From contig NZ_CP110806.1 of assembly GCF_026184235.1 (NCBI RefSeq), forward strand, positions 2,852,001 through 2,916,000: DNA of 64,000 bases, written 5' to 3'. The position numbers and the translations under genes are program-made. This DNA is from Cellulomonas sp. S1-8 (GTDB lineage: Bacteria > Actinomycetota > Actinomycetes > Actinomycetales > Cellulomonadaceae). This document shows positions 1,887-22,823 of this stretch, in pieces. The notes under the pieces were generated by a model that worked only from the letters and a program-made list of their open reading frames with translations, did no database searches and was not told the DNA's origin. The first letter of the stretch is position 1; each line of letters begins with the position of its first letter.

Positions 1887-3191
1887 GTGCGCAAGACCAC
1901 ACGCAAGGCGTGGGCGCTCGCAGCAGGTGTGACGAGCATCGCCCTCGTCGCGACCGCCTGCTCCTCGAGCGACGACGCAGGCGAGGGTGACGAGACCGCG
2001 GACGGCGGGAGCGTCACGCTCACGGTCGCCACCTTCAACGAGTTCGGCTACACCGACGAGATGTTCGACCGCTACGAGGCGGAGAACCCCGGCGTCACGA
2101 TCGAGCAGAAGGTCGCCGCGACCTCGAACGAGGCCCGCGAGAACCTCAACACGCGTCTCGCGGCGGGCTCCGGCACGTCCGACATCGAGGCCATCGAGGT
2201 CGACTGGCTGCCCGAGCTGCTGGCGTACCCGGACTACTTCGAGGACCTGGCGTCCCCCGACGTCGAGGGCCGCTGGCTGGACTGGAAGCAGGCCCAGGCC
2301 ACGACGGCGGACGGCAAGCTCATCGGCTACGGCACGGACATCGGCCCGCAGGGCATCGCCTACCGCGCCGACCTGTTCGAGGCAGCCGGTCTGCCGTCGG
2401 ACCGCGAGGCCGTCGCCGAGCTCTTCGGCGGCGACGCCGCCACGTGGGAGGGCTTCTTCGAGGTCGGCAAGACGTACGCCGCAGCCTCGGGCGGCAAGGC
2501 GTTCTTCGACTCGGCCAGCGCCATCTACCAGGGCATGGTCAACCAGGAGGAGGCGGCCTACGAGGACCCCGAGACCGGTGACGTGATCGCGCTGGACAAC
2601 CCGCGCGTGAAGGAGATGTACGACCAGGTGACGGCCGCCGCGCGGACCGACAACCTGTCGGCGCACTTCGCCCAGTGGAGCGACGACTGGACGAACTCGT
2701 TCCAGACGGACGGCTTCGCCGTCATGCTGGCCCCGGGCTGGATGCTCGGTGTCATCGAGGGCAACGCGGCCGGCGTCACCGGCTGGGACCTGGCCGACGT
2801 CTACCCCGGTGGTGCCGGCAACTGGGGCGGCTCGTTCCTGACCGTCCCCTCGCAGGGTGCCAACACCGAGGCCGCCACCAAGCTGGCCGCGTGGCTGACC
2901 GCCCCCGAGCAGCAGATCGAGGCGTTCACCAACAAGGGCACGTTCCCGAGCCAGGTCGAGGCGCTCGAGTCCGACGAGATCAAGTCGGCGACCAACGAGT
3001 TCTTCAACAACGCCCCGACCGGTGAGATCCTCGCCAACCGCGCGGAGGGCATCGTCGCCCCGTTCAAGGGTCCGCAGTACTTCACGATCCAGGACGCGGT
3101 CGCCAGCGCGCTCAACGAGGTCGACGTCAACGGCGCCGACCCCGCCGCTCAGTGGGACAGCGTCGTGCAGGTCGTCCAGGGTCTCGGCTGA
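1887..3191 (+). CDS. Sugar ABC transporter solute-binding lipoprotein (CebE-like)
   Basis: A 434-residue family-1 extracellular solute-binding protein. It has a basic N-terminus, a hydrophobic segment and a lipobox ending in ATAC with Cys25 as the predicted lipidation site, then an acidic Ser-rich tether and a bilobal binding domain (TVATFNEFGY onward, with WLPELLAYPDYFEDL and a Trp/Tyr-rich ligand face). The GTG start has a good Shine-Dalgarno (AAGGGAG, 5-base spacing); the in-frame extension upstream overlaps the promoter and operator and is rejected. First gene of a transporter operon lacking an ATPase gene, so a shared MsiK-type ATPase elsewhere is likely. A cello-oligosaccharide substrate is inferred from the CebR-like operator, not from ligand residues. 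Confidence 0.85.
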   Translation: MRKTTRKAWALAAGVTSIALVATACSSSDDAGEGDETADGGSVTLTVATFNEFGYTDEMFDRYEAENPGVTIEQKVAATSNEARENLNTRLAAGSGTSDIEAIEVDWLPELLAYPDYFEDLASPDVEGRWLDWKQAQATTADGKLIGYGTDIGPQGIAYRADLFEAAGLPSDREAVAELFGGDAATWEGFFEVGKTYAAASGGKAFFDSASAIYQGMVNQEEAAYEDPETGDVIALDNPRVKEMYDQVTAAARTDNLSAHFAQWSDDWTNSFQTDGFAVMLAPGWMLGVIEGNAAGVTGWDLADVYPGGAGNWGGSFLTVPSQGANTEAATKLAAWLTAPEQQIEAFTNKGTFPSQVEALESDEIKSATNEFFNNAPTGEILANRAEGIVAPFKGPQYFTIQDAVASALNEVDVNGADPAAQWDSVVQVVQGLG

Positions 3192-3208
3192 CCTGACCTG
3201 ACCTGAAC

Positions 3209-3254
3209 GTGCGGGGCCGGGTCGGTGGTGACCGCCACCGACCCGGCCCCGCAC
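3209..3254 (+). terminator. Perfect 20-bp stem-loop between binding protein and permease genes
   Basis: Two perfectly complementary 20-base arms (starting GTGCGGGGCC) are separated by a 6-base loop, directly after the binding-protein stop and just before the first permease. No T-run follows. In sugar ABC operons such intercistronic hairpins usually act as partial terminators or 3'-end stabilisers that keep the binding protein in excess over the permeases. Confidence 0.75.
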
Positions 3255-6479: not shown

Positions 6480-6549
6480 GGTCGCGGGCGCCGCACAACG
6501 ACGTGCGGCGCCCCCGCCTCGTCCGGGCGGTGCCCCGAGAGGAGCCCCC

Positions 6550-7017
6550 ATGCGTCGCAGCACCATCACCGAGCACGCCGCTGCGCCGCTGAGCCGCCAC
6601 GAGCGCTCCCGCACCGCCCGTCGTCGGCGTACCCGCCGCCGGGTGGGCGCCTTGCTGGCCGTCGTCGTCACGGTCGCGACCGCGCTGCCCGCCGCCGCGG
6701 CGATCGACGACCAGACCCCGGCGGGACCGACGGTCCTGCAGGACACGGACGGCACCGGGACGCTCCCCGGCGGCGGCACCCGACCGCAGGCCACGATCGA
6801 GGACGAGGACGCGTGGTGCTCCTACCTGTCCTCCTCCTACCTGTCATTCCCCTCCCCGTGGTCCGCACGCGTCATCAACTGCCGCGACAGCGACCTGTTC
6901 GTCGCGCCCGTGTACTCCGACGGCGGCCTCGGCATGTGCGTGCTCGTGCCCGCGCGTCACAGCCGGCACCTGGGCGGCAGCATCACCCGATGGGTCACCG
7001 ACATCCGGTACTGCTGA
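6550..7017 (+). CDS. Small secreted four-cysteine protein, unknown function
   Basis: 155 residues. A long arginine-rich n-region (about 18-32) precedes a hydrophobic stretch (VGALLAVVVTVATAL) and an Ala-rich cleavage site near residue 50, typical of an actinobacterial Sec or Tat-like signal peptide (no perfect twin-Arg motif, though poly-Arg is present). The mature part begins with an acidic Gly/Thr-rich linker followed by a compact domain of about 70 residues with four cysteines (90, 111, 130 and the C-terminal residue 155), suggesting two disulfides. The ATG has a Shine-Dalgarno GAGAGGAG. I do not recognise the family. It lies between the LacI regulator and glutamate dehydrogenase but has its own promoter. 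Confidence 0.6.
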   Translation: MRRSTITEHAAAPLSRHERSRTARRRRTRRRVGALLAVVVTVATALPAAAAIDDQTPAGPTVLQDTDGTGTLPGGGTRPQATIEDEDAWCSYLSSSYLSFPSPWSARVINCRDSDLFVAPVYSDGGLGMCVLVPARHSRHLGGSITRWVTDIRYC

Positions 7018-7053
7018 CGGGTGGCGCGGCGTCTGCCGTGCCAGGGTGAGGTC

Positions 7054-8352
7054 ATGGGCGACCACCCTTCCCCCCCGACCACCGCCGGCACGACCAGCCA
7101 CGTCGACGCGTCGTCGGCGCCGCTCGCCACCGCGCAGCAACAGCTGTCGCGCGCGGTCGAGATCCTCGGCTACGACGCCGGCCTGCACGAGGTGCTCGCG
7201 ACCCCGCGGCGCGAGCTGCGGGTCGCCGTCCCGCTGCGCCGCGACGACGGGCGCGTCCAGGTGTTCACCGGGTACCGCGTGCAGCACAACATCTCCCGCG
7301 GTCCTGGCAAGGGCGGGCTGCGCTACGCCCCCGGCGTCGACATCGACGAGGTCCGCGCCCTGGCGATGTGGATGACCTGGAAGTGCGCGGTCGTCGACGT
7401 GCCGTACGGCGGCGCGAAGGGCGGGGTGACGATCGACCCGCACACGCACTCGGCGGCCGAGCTCGAACGCGTGACGCGCCGCTACACCAGCGAGATCATG
7501 CCGATGATCGGGCCCGAGCGGGACATCATGGCGCCCGACATCGGCACGAACGAGCAGACGATGGCCTGGGTCATGGACACCTACTCGGTCAACCGCGGGT
7601 TCACGATCCCCGCGGTCACGACCGGCAAGCCGCTGGCGGTCGGCGGGTCGCTGGGCCGTCCCACGGCGACGTCGCAGGGCGTCGTGCACACGGCGCGCGC
7701 CACGCTGCGCGCCGAGGGTGTCGAGCTGGCCGAGGTCAGCGCGGCCGTGCAGGGCTTCGGCAAGGTCGGGTCGCACGCGGCGCGGCTGCTGCACGACGCC
7801 GGCACCCGCGTCGTGGCGGTCAGCGACGAGCACGGCGGCGTGCGGCGGGACGACGGCCTCGACGTGCCGGCCCTGCTCGAGCACGTCGCCCGCACCGGCG
7901 AGGTCGCGGGGTTCGCGGACGCCGACCCGGTCAGCAACGCGGACCTGCTGGCGCTCGACGTCGACCTGCTGGTGCCCGCGGCCGTCGAGGGGGTCCTCGA
8001 CGGCGAGACCGCGGGACGCGTCAAGGCGCGGTGGGTCGTCGAGGGCGCCAACGGTCCGACCACGAGCGAGGGTGACCGCATCCTCGCGGAGCGCGGCGTC
8101 GTCGTGGTCCCCGACGTCCTGGCCAACGCCGGCGGCGTGGTCGTCAGCTACTTCGAGTGGGTGCAGGCGAACCAGGCGTACTGGTGGACCGAGCAGGAGA
8201 TCGAGGAGCGTCTCGAGCGGCGGATGCTGGCGAGCCACGAGGCCGTCGCCGGCCTGGCGCGGGCGGAGTCGGTGACGCTGCGTGAGGCGGCGATGACGAT
8301 CGGCGTCCGGCGCGTGGCGGAGGCGCACCTGATCCGCGGCCTGTACCCCTGA
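7054..8352 (+). CDS. Glu/Leu/Phe/Val dehydrogenase family protein, probably glutamate dehydrogenase
   Basis: A 432-residue cytosolic enzyme interconverting glutamate and 2-oxoglutarate plus ammonium. Substrate-binding and catalytic lysines are visible at GPGKGGLRYAP (Lys86), MTWK (Lys110) and PYGGAKGG (Lys122, catalytic), followed by the PDIGT segment and a Rossmann NAD(P) domain with GFGKVGS near residue 243. The length fits the hexameric class-II family (about 420-450). ATG is chosen over an upstream GTG because of the GGTGAGG ribosome site 4-5 bases away. Monocistronic. Leucine or other amino-acid specificity cannot be excluded from sequence alone. Confidence 0.9.
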   Translation: MGDHPSPPTTAGTTSHVDASSAPLATAQQQLSRAVEILGYDAGLHEVLATPRRELRVAVPLRRDDGRVQVFTGYRVQHNISRGPGKGGLRYAPGVDIDEVRALAMWMTWKCAVVDVPYGGAKGGVTIDPHTHSAAELERVTRRYTSEIMPMIGPERDIMAPDIGTNEQTMAWVMDTYSVNRGFTIPAVTTGKPLAVGGSLGRPTATSQGVVHTARATLRAEGVELAEVSAAVQGFGKVGSHAARLLHDAGTRVVAVSDEHGGVRRDDGLDVPALLEHVARTGEVAGFADADPVSNADLLALDVDLLVPAAVEGVLDGETAGRVKARWVVEGANGPTTSEGDRILAERGVVVVPDVLANAGGVVVSYFEWVQANQAYWWTEQEIEERLERRMLASHEAVAGLARAESVTLREAAMTIGVRRVAEAHLIRGLYP

Positions 8353-8379
8353 GGGCGCACGCCGCCGGCACGACCCTCG

Positions 8380-8826
8380 TCAGTGCAGCGCGTGGGGGCC
8401 CGCGTCGACCGGGGCCGCATCACCGGAGGCGGGCGCCCGCACCAGCTCGGCCGCTCGACCACCCGGCGTGCGCAGGGTCAACGTGCCGTCCTGCGACGCC
8501 ACGACCCCGCCGTCCTGCAGCAGCCCCAGCACCGCGCGCTCGGTCGTCGTCGCCTCCGGCGGGCCGGCCATGAGCGTCGCGACCACCGGACCGAACGACA
8601 GCGTCGACCCCTCGAGGCGCCAGGTGCCGCGGACCCGGTTGACGCCGGCGTAGCCGAACACCATGCCGTCACCGTCGAAGGTCAGCCACGGCGGTCCCTG
8701 CAGCCCGTCGGCGAGGTCGGTGCCGTCGACGCGCACCACCCGCCACGTCCCGTGCAGCCACGGGGCGTCCGGGACGGCACCCGTGGGGTCGGCGGTGGTC
8801 GGCTCGTCGTGCCCGTCGTCGCGCAT
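8380..8826 (-). CDS. META-domain (HslJ-like) protein
   Basis: A 148-residue protein with a META domain (about 22-125): WLHGTWRVVRVDGTDL, then the FGYAGVNRVRGTW core and GPVVATLMAGPP, matching the HslJ-like fold in which a GxNxxxG-type loop and a TxMAC/P-like segment are conserved. No signal peptide or lipobox is evident, unlike E. coli HslJ, so it may be cytosolic. It is downstream of hemQ on the same strand with a 43-base gap and may be co-transcribed. Precise role unknown. Confidence 0.72.
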   Translation of the reverse strand: MRDDGHDEPTTADPTGAVPDAPWLHGTWRVVRVDGTDLADGLQGPPWLTFDGDGMVFGYAGVNRVRGTWRLEGSTLSFGPVVATLMAGPPEATTTERAVLGLLQDGGVVASQDGTLTLRTPGGRAAELVRAPASGDAAPVDAGPHALH

Positions 8827-8869
8827 GCTCGATGATGGCACCCCCGTGACGGCGCGGGCGACAGGTGCG

Positions 8870-9580
8870 TCAGGCGCGCGGCAGCCGCTGCACCCAGTCG
8901 GCCAGCTCGACGCGCGGGCCCGTGTAGAACGGGACCTCCTCGCGCACGTGCAGCCGGGCCTGCGTGGCGCGCAGGTCGCGCATGAGGTCGACGATGCGGT
9001 GCAGCTCGCCGGCCTCGAACGCCAGGAGCCACTCGTAGTCGCCGAGCGCGAACGACGACACCGTGTTGGCGCGCACGTCGGCGTAGTCCCGCGCCGCCGC
9101 ACCGTGCTCGTGCAGCATGCGGCGACGGTCCTCGTCGGGCAGGACGTACCACTCGTAGGACCGGACGAAGGGGTAGAGGCACAGGTAGTCGCCCGCGGGC
9201 TCCCCCGCCATGAACGCCGGCACGTGCGCCCGGTTGAACTCGGCCGGCCGGTGCAGCCCGACGACCGACCACACGGGGGTCAGGTGCGCGCCCAGGGCGC
9301 TGGCCCGCAGCCGGTGGTAGGCGCCCTGCACCTGCTCGACCGTCTCCGCGTGCCACCACACCATGAGGTCCGCGTCGGCGCGCAGGCCGGCGACGTCGTA
9401 CCAGCCGCGCACGACGAGCCCGTCGTCGGACCCGACCGCGCGCTCCGCGTCGGCGACGACCGCGGCGCGCGCGTCGGCGTCGGCCGGCACGGGGCCGTCG
9501 ACGGCGAAGACGGACCACATCGTGTAGCGGATGGTGGCGTTGAGCGCGGCTGCATCGGGGGCGGTCGGTGGCGTGGTCAC
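8870..9580 (-). CDS. hemQ: Coproheme decarboxylase (HemQ/ChdC, chlorite dismutase family)
   Basis: A 236-residue cytosolic enzyme performing the last step of the coproporphyrin-dependent haem pathway, peroxide-driven decarboxylation of coproheme to haem b. Diagnostic segments are [11 protein letters not shown] at the N-terminus, the [10 protein letters not shown] stretch carrying the catalytic-Tyr region, and LHEHG with the proximal His, in the usual order. A GTG with GACGGAG five bases upstream is preferred to a GTG 23 codons earlier that would overlap hemH. It lies 44 bases after ferrochelatase on the same strand, consistent with a hemH-hemQ operon acting consecutively. Confidence 0.9.
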
Positions 9581-9624
9581 GGGGGCTCCGTCGGCTGGGG
9601 TGGGCAGGTGCGGGGTCGGCACGG

Positions 9625-10821
9625 TCACGAGGCGGGGTCCGTCGAGCACGCGGCCAGGCGCCCGGAGTCCTCACCGGCGCGCATGCGGCAGCAGCCGGGG
9701 GCGCACACCGAACGGAACGCCGGCAGCTCCCCCGTGGTCGCCTGGGCAGGTCGCGGCAGGCCGGCGTCGTCGGCGCGGGCGATCGCGGCGCGCTCCAGCA
9801 GCAGGTCGACCAGGCCGCTGACGAACGCGTCCCGCACGCCGACCGAGTCCGCGCGCACGGCGGTCATGCCCAGCTCCTGCGCCGTCTCCAGCGCCTCGGT
9901 GTCCAGGTCGAACGCCACCTCCATGTGGTCGGAGACGAAGCCGACCGGCGACAGCACGACCGACGTCGTGCCCGCCGCGGCGAGGACGGCGAGGTGGTCG
10001 TTGACGTCGGGCTCGAGCCACGGCTGGCTGGGCGGGCCGGAGCGCGAGCAGAACGCCAGGTCCCACTCGACCGTCCGGCCGAGTCGCTGCGACGCCGCCG
10101 CGGCGACGGTGCGTGCGACGTCGAGGTGCTGCTCGCGGTACGACGCGCCGGCGACGACCGACGCCTCCTCCATCGTGTCCGGGATCGAGTGCGTCACGAA
10201 CACGAGCCGCGGCCAGGCGGCGTCGGCCGCGACACCCGCGTAGGCCTCGACGACGGCGTCGACGTTCGCGCGCACGAAGCCCGGGTGGTTGAAGTAGGAG
10301 CGCACCTTGTCGACGACGAGCGGGTGCGACCCCTCGGGGGCACCGACCTGGCCGGCGAGGTCGCCCAGCGCGGTCCAGAGGTTCTCGCGGTACTGCCGGC
10401 AGCCCGAGTAGGACGAGTACGCGGAGGTGACCAGGGCCACGGCCCGGCGGGCGCCGGCGGCGTACGCCTCGGCCAGCGCGTCGCGCGTGTACGGCTCCCA
10501 GTTGCGGTTGCCCCACACGACGGGGACGTCGAGCCCCCGGCTGCTCAGCTCGGCCTGCACCGCGGCGCGCAGCGCGAGGTTCTGCTCGTTGATGGGGCTG
10601 CGGCCACCGAAGTGGTGGTAGTGCTCGGCGACCTCGGCGAGGCGCGCGTCCGGGATGTTCTTGCCCGCGGTCACGTTGCGCAGGAACGGCAGCACGTCGT
10701 CGGGGCCGTTCGGCCCGCCGAAGGAGAACAGCAGGACGGCGTCGTACGGGTCCAGCCCGGCCGCTCCGGCCAGGGGGACGGCCGTCCGGTCGGTGGCGGG
10801 GGGCGTCGAGGGCGTCGTCAC
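9625..10821 (-). CDS. hemH: Coproporphyrin ferrochelatase
   Basis: A protein of about 398 residues inserting Fe2+ into coproporphyrin III, the step before HemQ. Recognisable blocks are [31 protein letters not shown], the catalytic His in [12 protein letters not shown], and the acidic helix [16 protein letters not shown]-terminal Cys cluster (VCAPGCC) and an internal Cys in [12 protein letters not shown] fit the [2Fe-2S] cluster known in actinobacterial ferrochelatases. The start is uncertain: this GTG, another three codons upstream, or one 26 codons upstream; the N-terminal 20 residues are low-complexity. First gene of a hemH-hemQ pair, divergent from the kinase gene. Confidence 0.9.
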
Positions 10822-19438: not shown

Positions 19439-19712
19439 GCGGTCCCCCGCCCGGCCGTCGGCATCATGCCGCGGGGTCCGGTGCGACCGCAGGCGAGCGG
19501 TCGACCGCGGCCTCCTCGACGAGAGGACGCGCGTGCTCGCGTCCCCGCCACGTCCGTGCCCGCACCCGTCCCACCGTCCCGCCGCTCGTCCCGCCTCTCG
19601 TCGTGCCACCGTCGCACCCCCCTCCCGGGTCCGCATCCGCGCGCCGACCACCCGCGAGCGCGGCCGACGGCGTGGTGGGGACAGGAGATCGGACAAAGTT
19701 CGCGTGGCGGCT

Positions 19713-19737
19713 CAACATCCGGGGCGTGAGCCGCGTC
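19713..19737 (+). promoter_or_regulatory. ECF-sigma-type promoter (CAAC-N17-CGTC) of the amidoligase operon
   Basis: CAAC and CGTC are separated by 17 bases, the layout of ECF-sigma promoters with an AAC-type -35 and CGTC -10. It lies 45 bases upstream of the first gene of an operon that itself encodes an ECF sigma factor, which points to autoregulation. The remaining roughly 270 bases of the gap after the epimerase gene show no other feature. Confidence 0.6.
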
Positions 19738-19782
19738 TTCAGAGGGCAAGCAACGTCACCCCCCCCACCCGGAGGTAGCACC

Positions 19783-20334
19783 ATGAACGCGAACCCCACC
19801 CACACCACCCGCCCGCGGCACCGCCGCCTCGTCGTCGTCGGCGCCGTCGCTGCCGGGCTCTCGATCGCCTGCGCCGGCGGGGCGATGGCCGTCGCACCGC
19901 AGTCCGCGGTGTCGCAGGGCGTCGTCTCCGCGCTGCAGACCGTCGGCATCGAGTGGGAGGGCATGCCCGAGGGCTACACCCCCGAGCAGTACACCGCGTT
20001 CTGGGACGCCGGGTACACGTACGGTGACGCGCAGCACCTCGCCGAGCTGTGGGACGTCGACCTGACCGAGGCCAAGGCGCGCGCCGGGCAGCTGGTCGTC
20101 GACGGGCAGACCCTGCCGATCACCCCCGCCACCTACCCCGACGCCGGCTCCGACCCGTTGTCCGTCGCGATCGACGCGCTGTGGGCCGCCGGGTACACCT
20201 TCGAGGACGTCCAGGAGCTCTCCGCGCTGTGGAGCACCGACGACTTCGAGACCAAGGCACGGGCCGGCCAGGTGCTCCTCGACGGGCAGACGCTGCCCGT
20301 CGAGCCGAGCGGCACCGCCACGTCGGGGTCCTGA
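19783..20334 (+). CDS. Secreted tandem-repeat protein of the amidoligase operon
   Basis: 183 residues. An Arg-rich n-region and hydrophobic segment (about 16-36) form a signal peptide; Cys30 lies inside the hydrophobic core and not in a clear lipobox. The mature protein has an entry segment (VVSALQTVGIEWEGMPEGY) and two repeats 60 residues apart (about 73-113 and 133-173), each reading roughly W-x-A-G-Y, LW, E-x-KARAGQ, DGQTLPV. The same entry segment and repeats occur in the membrane protein encoded at the operon end. Excellent Shine-Dalgarno (GGAGG). No family recognised. It could be the ligand of that membrane protein or a substrate of the neighbouring amidoligase. Confidence 0.75.
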   Translation: MNANPTHTTRPRHRRLVVVGAVAAGLSIACAGGAMAVAPQSAVSQGVVSALQTVGIEWEGMPEGYTPEQYTAFWDAGYTYGDAQHLAELWDVDLTEAKARAGQLVVDGQTLPITPATYPDAGSDPLSVAIDALWAAGYTFEDVQELSALWSTDDFETKARAGQVLLDGQTLPVEPSGTATSGS

Positions 20335-20338
20335 GCCC

Positions 20339-21484
20339 ATGGCGTCCGGCATGCTGGACCACCGCGCCCGCGAGGAGACGACCATCGACACGGACGGCCT
20401 GACGCTGCGCACCGGCGTCGAGATCGAGCTGCTAGCACCCGTCGGGTCCGACCGGCAGGCGCTCGCGGACGTCCTCGCCGCCCGCTCCGGCGGCAGGGTG
20501 CGACGGTCCTTCCACACCGACAGCGAACCGTCGGCCGTGCCGGGCGTCGGTGTCTTCCGACACCTGTCCCCCGCGTTCGACGTCGTCGACGGGCAGGGGC
20601 GTCCCCTCGCCCGGCTCGTCGACGACGTCACCATCGAGGCGGACCTCGCCCCGGTGCCCGGCAGGCGTGACCTGCCCGGGCACCGGGGGTGGTACCGCGT
20701 GCTGTGCGACGACGCGCGCCTGCTGCGGCTCGTCGAGCGGCACGCCGACCCCGACGCGTCCCTCGCGGACGTGCTGCGGCCCGTCGCCGACCTGTTCGGG
20801 GTCGCGGTCGACGTGCTCCCCGGCGCCGCACGCGTCAACGACGCGGCGGGCGCGAGCATCGCTGTGGCGATGCCCCTGCCGCCGGGCCGCGAGCGCCCGT
20901 GCGAGATCGTCACGCCGCCGCTGGAGCACGCGCACGTCCGCACGTTGGAGGCCCTGCTCGCCCCCGCACGCGACCTCGGGTTCACCGTGCCGCAGGAGGC
21001 CGCCGTGCACCTGCACGTCGACGGCGGCCCGTACCGGGCACCCGCACCCTTCGCCAACCTCGTCCGGCTGTTCGCGCACTGGCGCGAGCCGCTGTGGGCG
21101 GCGCTGGGCACCAACCCGGCCTGCCGCCGGCTCGCCCCGCTGCCGGACGCGCTCCTCGACCTCGTCGAGCGGGACCACGCCGGCACGGCCGAGGGCTGGG
21201 CGCGCCTGCAGCAGGACGCCCGCACGATCGGGCTCACGAAGTACGCCGACGTGAACCTCACGCAGCTCGTCGCCCGGCGCCCCGTGCGCGACACGGTGGA
21301 GGTGCGGATCCTGCCCGGCTCGATCGACGGGCACGACGTGGTCCGCCGCGCCCGGCTCGTCGAGCAGCTGCTGCTGCGCTGCCGGGAGCCGCGGCCGCTG
21401 CCCCTGCCGGGTGCGGACGCCGCCCACGACCCGCGGGCGGCGCTGTCCGCGCTCGCCGCCGACCGCCAGGAGGCCACCCGATGA
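20339..21484 (+). CDS. Putative amidoligase enzyme
   Basis: 381 residues resembling the amidoligase family, which has the glutamate-cysteine-ligase/glutamine-synthetase fold and is predicted to form amide bonds between carboxylates and amines on peptides or cell-wall material. Ordered motifs are G-V-E-I-E-L (26-31), CEIVTPPL (188-195), AVHLHVDGG (222-230), KYADVNL (301-307) and EVRILPGSID (321-330); the acidic first motif, paired His and late Glu/Arg fit metal-ATP and substrate sites. No signal peptide, so cytosolic. It starts 4 bases after the secreted repeat gene and its end overlaps the sigma gene (ATGA). An alternative ATG lies four codons in. The substrate is unknown. Confidence 0.7.
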   Translation: MASGMLDHRAREETTIDTDGLTLRTGVEIELLAPVGSDRQALADVLAARSGGRVRRSFHTDSEPSAVPGVGVFRHLSPAFDVVDGQGRPLARLVDDVTIEADLAPVPGRRDLPGHRGWYRVLCDDARLLRLVERHADPDASLADVLRPVADLFGVAVDVLPGAARVNDAAGASIAVAMPLPPGRERPCEIVTPPLEHAHVRTLEALLAPARDLGFTVPQEAAVHLHVDGGPYRAPAPFANLVRLFAHWREPLWAALGTNPACRRLAPLPDALLDLVERDHAGTAEGWARLQQDARTIGLTKYADVNLTQLVARRPVRDTVEVRILPGSIDGHDVVRRARLVEQLLLRCREPRPLPLPGADAAHDPRAALSALAADRQEATR

Positions 21485-22077
21485 GCGTCTGGACCCAGAC
21501 GTCGCGCCCGGACAGCGCCGCGATCCCGGTGGTACGTCCCCTGCACGCCGTCACCGGACCGTCGCCGGCCGAGGACGGTGCCACGCACCACCTCGACGAC
21601 GTCGTGCGCGCGCACCTGCCCGGGCTGCTGCGCTACGCGACCGTGCTGACGGGCGACGGCCACACCGCCGCCGACCTGGTGCAGGAGGTCCTGCTGCGCG
21701 CCCACGTGCGCTGGACCCGCATCAGCCTCATGGACCGACCCGACCTGTACCTGCGCCGGATGGTCACCAACGAGCACCTGTCGTGGCGCCGCCGGTGGCA
21801 CGTGCGCACCGTGCACCCCTCGACGGAGGAGGTGCTCGCGGCGCACGCGGACCCGACGCGCGACCACGCCCACCGCGTCGTCGAGGACGACGCCATGTGG
21901 GAACGCCTGGCGGCGCTCCCGCCGCGGCAACGCACCGTCCTCGTCCTGCGCTACTACGAGGGCCTCGCCGACCTGGAGATCGCCCAGGTGCTGGGCACCT
22001 CCGCCGCCACCGTCCGCTCCCACGCATCCCGCGCGCTCGCCACGCTGCGGGTCGCCGACCTCACCACGGAGTCCTGA
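21481..22077 (+). CDS. ECF sigma factor (SigE-family type)
   Basis: 198 residues with region sigma-2 (about 45-110: LLRYATVLTGDGHTAADLVQEV, then LYLRRMVTNEHLSWRRR) and sigma-4 (about 145-195: LAALPPRQRTVLVLRYYEGL, helix-turn-helix around VLGTSAATVRSHASRAL). A 35-residue N-terminal extension precedes region 2. The layout matches the actinobacterial SigE-family ECF group. It overlaps the amidoligase stop and its own stop overlaps the next start (TGATGA region), so all three are translationally coupled. It probably recognises the CAAC-N17-CGTC promoter of its own operon. Confidence 0.88.
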   Translation: MSVWTQTSRPDSAAIPVVRPLHAVTGPSPAEDGATHHLDDVVRAHLPGLLRYATVLTGDGHTAADLVQEVLLRAHVRWTRISLMDRPDLYLRRMVTNEHLSWRRRWHVRTVHPSTEEVLAAHADPTRDHAHRVVEDDAMWERLAALPPRQRTVLVLRYYEGLADLEIAQVLGTSAATVRSHASRALATLRVADLTTES

Positions 22078-22823
22078 TGAACGAGCACCTGCGAGCCGTC
22101 CCCGGCTCCCCCGGCGACGACGCCGGCACCCACCGACCCACCGACGGCGCGCCCCCCGGGCCGCCCCCCGACCTCATGGTCGAGCGGATCGCCCGGTCGC
22201 TGCGCACCCGCGACGCGCTGCAGCCCGACCCTGCGGTCGTCGCCGCGCGCCTCGAGGCGCAGCTGGCGTCCCGGGCGGCGGCCCACCGCACCCCCGTGCG
22301 CCTCATGACGAGCCGTGGGGCGCGGATCGCCGCCGCGGGGATCGTCACCTCGACGCTCGCCGTCGGCGGCGCCGGTGCAGCCGCGGCCGCGAACCCGTAC
22401 TCCCCGATGGCGCGCACGGTCGAGAACGTCGTCCAGGCCGTGGGGATCGAGTGGAGCGCCATGCCGGACGGCTACACCCGCGAGCAGTACGAGGCGTTCT
22501 GGGGCGCGGGGTTCGAGACCGAGGACATCAACGCGCTCGCGGAGCTGTGGGGCACGGACACGACGGAGACGAAGGCGCGTGCCGGGCAGATGCTGCTCGA
22601 CGGCGACGTGGTGCCGGTCGCGCCCGGCTCGATGACGACGGACGTGACCGCGGACCAGATCGCCGCGCTGTGGGCCGCCGGCTACGTCTGGGACGACGCG
22701 CTCGCGCTGGCCGACCTCTGGGACGTCGACGTCTCCGAGGCGAAGGCGCGCGCGGCGGTGGCGTTCGCCGCGGGGCAGGCGCTGCCCGTCGCGCCGTCCG
22801 GCGAGGTGGGCGGCGAGGGCTGA
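22077..22823 (+). CDS. Membrane protein with candidate anti-sigma region and repeat ectodomain
   Basis: 248 residues. A Pro/Gly-rich and then helical N-terminal part (about 1-80, MVERIARSLRTRDALQPD), a single hydrophobic segment (about 84-106) and a C-terminal part outside the membrane. Its position right after the ECF gene and its topology suggest an anti-sigma factor, although no zinc-binding HxxxCxxC anti-sigma motif is present. The ectodomain carries the entry segment (VENVVQAVGIEWSAMPDGY) and two repeats (about 141-181 and 197-238) homologous to those of the secreted protein of the same operon. The anti-sigma role is inferred from context. Confidence 0.68.
   Translation: MNEHLRAVPGSPGDDAGTHRPTDGAPPGPPPDLMVERIARSLRTRDALQPDPAVVAARLEAQLASRAAAHRTPVRLMTSRGARIAAAGIVTSTLAVGGAGAAAAANPYSPMARTVENVVQAVGIEWSAMPDGYTREQYEAFWGAGFETEDINALAELWGTDTTETKARAGQMLLDGDVVPVAPGSMTTDVTADQIAALWAAGYVWDDALALADLWDVDVSEAKARAAVAFAAGQALPVAPSGEVGGEG

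Follow-up and report, generated by a model that had tools for sequence, protein, structure and literature searches.

The locus

We have analysed a four-gene locus within a 64,000-nucleotide stretch of the genome (4.5 Mb) of Cellulomonas sp. S1-8 (contig NZ_CP110806.1, G000:C1:2852001-2916000, hereafter the window). In this locus a gene encoding a secreted repeat protein (REP1) is followed by genes for an amidoligase (AMID), an extracytoplasmic function (ECF) sigma factor and a membrane protein bearing the same type of repeat (REP) in its ectodomain. The block of four genes that the original prediction described is present, all frames lying on the forward strand between 19783 and 22823, and its tight junctions are equally evident: a 4-base gap separates REP1 from AMID (20335-20338), AMID and the sigma gene share an ATGA overlap (21481-21484), and the sigma and membrane-protein genes overlap by one base at 22077 (Table 1). 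The repeats said to be shared by the secreted and membrane proteins are indeed homologous, with profile matches in both and 46.6% identity between the two proteins over 163 residues, membrane segment included. A promoter-like element, consisting of CTCAACATC (-35-like), N12 and CGCGTCT (-10-like), was found 44 bases upstream of the REP1 start, where an ECF-type promoter had been predicted. A second complete four-gene copy is present in the same genome at approximately G000:C1:3904541-3907683 (L136, G000:C1:3898000-3914000, about 6542-9684), with an AMID 72% identical to that of the window and a promoter-like match at 3904541 that is one mismatch off.

Table 1. Features of the four-gene locus, in window positions
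Feature	Position	Strand	Basis or remark
Predicted ECF promoter	19711..19738	+	Pattern match, G000:C1:2871711-2871738
REP1, secreted two-repeat protein, 183 residues	19783..20334	+	Signal peptide roughly codons 1-36 (by eye)
REP1 repeat unit 1	19978..20127	+	Profile match, E 3.6e-24; the unit is itself among the 24 rows of the model
REP1 repeat unit 2	20167..20307	+	Profile match, E 2.2e-21; also a row of the model
AMID, Amidoligase_2, 381 residues	20339..21484	+	PF12224 profile match
ECF sigma factor, SigE family, 198 residues	21481..22077	+	TIGR02983; Sigma70_r2 and r4_2
Candidate anti-sigma membrane protein	22077..22823	+	Single-pass, two repeats in ectodomain
Candidate anti-sigma cytoplasmic N-terminus	about 22077-22319	+	Anti-sigma-like domain, model comparison
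Candidate anti-sigma membrane span	about 22320-22388	+	Hydropathy
Candidate anti-sigma ectodomain repeats	22476-22625, 22647-22796	+	Profile matches

The amidoligase and the repeat

The profile search named in the original prediction as the check on its amidoligase assignment places AMID within Amidoligase_2 (PF12224) at 67.8 bits against a cut-off of 22, the sole Pfam family matched at an expect value (E) of up to 1. The best structural matches of the predicted AMID model are glutamate-cysteine ligase, YbdK, Dop and glutamine synthetase, and the AMID alignment contains invariant residues of acidic (E28 and E30 included), His, Asn, Arg and Lys type. AMID is thereby identified from its sequence as a relative of carboxylate-amine ligases of the glutamine synthetase/glutamate-cysteine ligase (GS/GCS) fold. 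No signal peptide was seen by eye. An ATP-grasp ligase of the graspetide type, as found among ribosomally synthesized and post-translationally modified peptides (RiPPs), was considered and rejected, as AMID matches Amidoligase_2 only (Pfam, E up to 1) and has the GS/GCS fold. Iyer and colleagues are said to have predicted glutamine-synthetase-like amidoligases by comparative genomics in 2009. In the part of the literature that is largely freely readable, no substrate is described for this Amidoligase_2 group.

The repeat comprises approximately 50 residues predicted to form three short helices, with block means mostly >90 in the predicted local distance difference test and a mean of 80.7 for the whole REP1 model. 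It reached no Pfam cut-off, and REP1 matched no Pfam or NCBIfam family above cut-off. Conservation is high in 168 distinct units from loci L001-L065, L102 and L110 (W27 and K35 100%, P49 98%, G39 95%, D19 93%) and extends to 121 other units, in which W27, G39 and P49 are present in 100%, K35 in 89% and D19 in 71%; units with ≥10 gaps were excluded from both sets. K35 is missing in 13/290 units, all from Frigoribacterium and Agreia loci. A group of Microbacteriaceae loci (L067-L071, L079, L081, L088, L104, L105) encodes three-repeat secreted proteins together with AMID, with no ECF gene in view, and the 13 units lacking K35 sit in eight of these loci.

Conservation of the REP-AMID pair

An AMID search at E up to 0.001 in 98 genomes, own included, gave 29 matches in 26 genomes, two of them in the own genome. 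Conservation of the four-gene order, on which the original prediction had staked itself, was observed: the full order REP-AMID-ECF-membrane REP occurs in 21 of the 29 AMID stretches and recurs in Cellulomonas, Promicromonospora, Sanguibacter, Actinotalea and Myceligenerans. The order is cut by contig ends at L011, L018, L027 and L028, and REP-AMID only is found at L026, which comes from a different family, and at L031, an additional copy in G008. G484 and G485 (Cellulomonas fimi HM71, contig of L063) likewise have REP-AMID only within the fetched stretches (L156, L157). One of the 21, L009 (G039, 2562-3239), has its upstream repeat gene divided between two frames by a frame break or sequencing error. 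At L007 (G003) the repeat gene and the first 18 AMID codons lie approximately 7 kb upstream of the remaining AMID (L143), and the ECF frame continues past its usual stop.

Contigs were also scanned with the AMID alignment, and the best 80 (79 loci) of 161 confirmed relatives were analysed as named loci. In 77/79, spanning several actinobacterial families, AMID is immediately preceded by a repeat frame in the same orientation; the two misses are L045, where the contig begins inside AMID, and L034. Placement of the ECF gene varies: it follows AMID in 32 loci, precedes the repeat gene in 27 (Actinoplanes and kin, one Acidothermaceae genome and three Kineococcus) and is not in view in 20. Among these 20, the sequence breaks off just past AMID at L036, L041 and L052, and <2 kb precedes AMID at L068, L074 and L076. 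Three architectures are thus distinguished: REP-AMID-ECF-membrane REP, the ECF-membrane REP-AMID order of Actinoplanes, and secreted REP-AMID without ECF in view. In a tree of 79 AMID rows (76 named loci plus L003, L030 and L031) the three architectures require 3 label changes compared with a shuffled mean of 36.1, with the side holding the first architecture weakly supported (68/55). Near-constant upstream adjacency combined with differing ECF placement indicates that the unit is REP-AMID; the four-gene set therefore stands as a recurring order, and as a unit it reduces to this core, to which the sigma module is joined in two ways or is not seen.

The distribution of the two genes across genomes parallels their adjacency. 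In the genus (81 genomes, own included) AMID was detected in 30 and repeats in 31, with all 30 shared and 50 genomes having neither (Fisher p 2e-21, kinship ignored). The class sample comprised 394 genomes, own included; 5 contain AMID, and repeats were detected in the same 5 and in a sixth, G243, whose repeat match is weak (E 1.5e-4) and was not confirmed by a second model within the fetched stretch. The tabulation of neighbours that was proposed originally and the co-occurrence across genomes together provide strong comparative evidence for an AMID-repeat partnership in actinobacteria.

The sigma module and its predicted promoter

The ECF protein matches TIGR02983 at 144.7 bits (cut-off 141.55) and carries the Pfam domains Sigma70_r2 and r4_2; the sigma factor of the second copy, at 3906419, scores 134.7, slightly under the same cut-off. 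The membrane protein matched no Pfam or NCBIfam family above cut-off. It has a cytoplasmic domain common to other ECF partners and a membrane span, and its gene adjoins the sigma gene, as is characteristic of ECF-linked anti-sigma factors. A model of the Cellulomonas-type cytoplasmic segment matched 15/27 Actinoplanes-type partners and 0/78 secreted repeat frames at E <1e-3, and 26/27 and 6/78, respectively, at E up to 1. The reverse, Actinoplanes-type model matched 27/55 partners and 0/78 secreted frames at E <1e-3, and 39/55 and 5/78 at E up to 1, all of these E-values being relative to a set of 160 short sequences that has near-copies and some incorrect frames among its rows. Alignment of the two cytoplasmic segments with hhalign gave a probability of 73 and an E of 3e-5. 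A version of the model retaining the membrane span was useless because signal peptides matched too. A predicted anti-sigma-like cytoplasmic domain is therefore what marks the repeat protein encoded beside the ECF gene, and the membrane protein is a candidate anti-sigma factor predicted to bind and inhibit the ECF protein.

The pairing of sigma and anti-sigma proposed for the window is matched elsewhere in the genome, where the SigE-family model gives 34 matches at E up to 0.001, 2 of them above cut-off (G000:C1, L182-L211). At 11 other such places that were checked, the next frame overlaps the sigma gene in all 11, its start lying 4-17 bases ahead of the final base of the sigma stop codon, and in 8 of the 11 the most hydrophobic stretch of the partner is at about residue 44-48. 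These 8 partners cross the membrane once and are laid out like the candidate anti-sigma protein of the locus, with different ectodomains.

For comparison across loci the promoter pattern was loosened to [TC][CGA][CA]ACA-N12-17-CGT[CT]; as this was done after inspecting these regions, the counts are not a blind test. The loosened motif is present upstream of REP-AMID-ECF-membrane REP in 39/39 distinct regions, compared with a shuffle mean of 1.41/39 (most 5), where the regions are those with a called signal peptide, some lack ECF solely through a contig end, and L026, L028, L031, L063, L038 and the extra L037 gene had been excluded beforehand. In the ECF-first architecture it occurs around the ECF start in 19/27 regions (shuffle mean 0.62/27, most 3); 5 of these 19 starts are unsure because the motif ends 11-30 bases past the aligned first codon. 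Without ECF in view the motif was found in 0/19 regions (contig-cut L028 included), and among further repeat genes in 2/13, these being a remnant in G486 and the displaced G003 gene. The predicted promoter motif thus tracks the presence of ECF.

Simple co-travel of the genes as a mobile or hitchhiking block, with no biochemical link, would agree with the patchy occurrence in the genus (30/81) but is highly improbable, as REP-AMID adjacency persists while the order of the architecture varies and as the promoter motif and the N-terminal domain follow ECF.

A proposed protein-modification system

Overall, we lean somewhat towards a two-part protein-modification system, consisting of a repeat protein and a dedicated amidoligase, under its own sigma/anti-sigma switch. 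In this proposal AMID would act in the cytoplasm, consuming adenosine triphosphate to create an amide linkage at the C-terminus or at side chains of its substrates, which would be REP1, the membrane protein and further repeat proteins of the same genomes; the modified proteins would then be exported. Through its ectodomain the anti-sigma factor may sense how much secreted repeat protein is present, how that protein is assembled or modified, or a target common to both, and release of the sigma factor would raise expression of the operon, resulting in autoregulation. That AMID modifies the repeats before export is an inference, for which the evidence is indirect. A more specific version, in which exported repeats are joined, internally or to one another, by an amide or isopeptide bond that AMID makes in trans on several repeat proteins per genome, and the anti-sigma repeat reports the modification or binding state of the secreted pool, is offered tentatively and is rather doubtful as it stands.

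A comparison of secreted and membrane repeats addressed homotypic sensing; if the two split before the species did, pairs from one locus should be no closer than foreign pairs. Across 34 loci, each of the four unit combinations gives a slightly higher similarity for own REP1-membrane pairs, from 0.623 versus 0.584 for unit 1 against unit 1 (p 5e-5) to 0.500 versus 0.482 in the weakest (p 0.004), with the own pair ranked first in only 2 to 5 of the 34 loci. An own-locus excess is likewise found between the two units of REP1 (0.555 vs 0.524) and is absent between those of the membrane protein (0.482 vs 0.483). Similarity of own pairs is elevated in the 24 loci of the Cellulomonas group (0.572 vs 0.546), and no excess was observed in the 7 of Promicromonospora and Myceligenerans (0.523 vs 0.519, p 0.19). 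The own-pair excess hints at co-variation of secreted and membrane repeats, short of showing the competition between secreted protein and ectodomain that the original prediction suggested.

The gene neighbourhood bears on two other explanations. Among frames of ≥90 residues within the fetched stretches of 42 chosen loci, the clusters common to at least four genus labels are AMID, REP, ECF and frames overlapping them, with one additional, dehydrogenase-like cluster found at 4 loci in varying places. It is conceivable, if unlikely, that AMID makes a small amide metabolite bound by the repeats, the secreted protein acting as carrier or buffer and the membrane protein as receptor in an autoinduction loop. 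The AMID fold is common to metabolite ligases such as glutamate-cysteine ligase, a repeat present in secreted protein and sensor alike suits ligand binding, and the AMID-repeat co-occurrence is explained equally well; however, no exporter or precursor-biosynthesis cluster reached four genus labels beside the core in the 42 loci, and REP-AMID occurs without ECF in view in 17/79 loci that are not cut just after AMID. We regard as improbable that AMID modifies another polymer, for instance a cell-wall or capsule peptide, with the repeats as wall-binding modules recognising the product and the sensor reading the envelope. Secreted repeats combined with an envelope sensor are consistent with this, as is P0207, a protein of 359 residues that fuses repeat-like units to a C-terminal MVL mannan-binding domain, but wall or capsule clusters are equally absent at the four-label threshold, and the repeat gene as directly upstream partner in 77/79 loci is left unexplained.

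Several observations weigh against the protein-modification system as proposed, and P0207 may be one of them. A repeat gene with its promoter is retained in G486, a genome from which AMID is absent; AMID and ECF gave no tblastn match within the 10 kb stretch compared. Conversely, at L010 (G052, the same place as L034) the order AMID-ECF-membrane REP lacks an immediately preceding repeat gene, in a copy that adjoins a complete one. At E <1e-3 the cytoplasmic model misses 12/27 partners of the other architecture, and the promoter motif is missing in 8/27 ECF-first regions. For the obvious Asp-Lys pair, a joint-loss check gave no support, units lacking K35 mostly retaining an acidic residue in column 19 (10/13 vs 262/277), and other acidic columns associate more strongly. 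RR is present in 38/59 signal peptides and a twin-arginine motif is not general, an awkward fit with a cross-linked fold having to be exported.

Relation to known systems

In its profile match and GS/GCS-type fold AMID resembles other Amidoligase_2 proteins; it differs from them in its near-strict pairing with a repeat protein and in the sigma/anti-sigma switch that often accompanies it. In contrast to the Pup ligase PafA and the depupylase Dop, the partner is a secreted multi-helix repeat protein; no proteasome-like cluster was recognised as common to at least four genus labels among frames of ≥90 residues in the 42 loci, no search aimed at a Pup-size neighbour having been made. The sigma module shares its TIGR02983 match and layout with SigE-like ECF factors having a single-pass membrane partner, but its ectodomain is a new repeat that is also present in a secreted protein of the same operon. 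In the SigI/RsgI systems of Clostridium thermocellum the anti-sigma ectodomain is related to domains of the secreted proteins that the sigma factor controls. The locus described here is alike in this respect; the sigma class differs, and SigI/RsgI is not known to be associated with an amidoligase. Graspetides and other RiPP systems with an ATP-dependent ligase similarly pair a ribosomal precursor gene with a gene for an amide-forming ligase; here the fold of the ligase is GS/GCS instead of ATP-grasp, and in place of a short leader-core peptide the partner is a repeat protein that is folded and carries a signal peptide.

As the repeat lies under every Pfam cut-off, a widespread actinobacterial family gains a probable partner enzyme. 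The near-strict, simple-repeat partner in turn provides AMID with a ready assay, two-gene co-expression followed by mass measurement, and the sigma/anti-sigma pair gains a testable input. The pairing points to a little-explored modification route for secreted proteins of soil actinobacteria and, if the more specific version of the proposal is correct, to an extracellular protein system that is amide-cross-linked, monitors itself and has a sigma factor of its own.

Further repeat proteins

Several AMID-positive genomes encode further secreted repeat proteins, mostly unlinked to the locus (e.g. G000:C1:4440507-4440842); at L037 and L153 an extra repeat gene comes after the membrane-protein gene. 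A subfamily of further secreted two-repeat proteins (L135 5274-5861, L144-L151, L153), most ending in PSGTPxS or similar, is without the ECF promoter motif. Four repeat proteins (P0144, P0147, P0148, P0173) have sub-threshold similarity to DUF6971 (PF22318), which is possibly a remote relative of the repeat.

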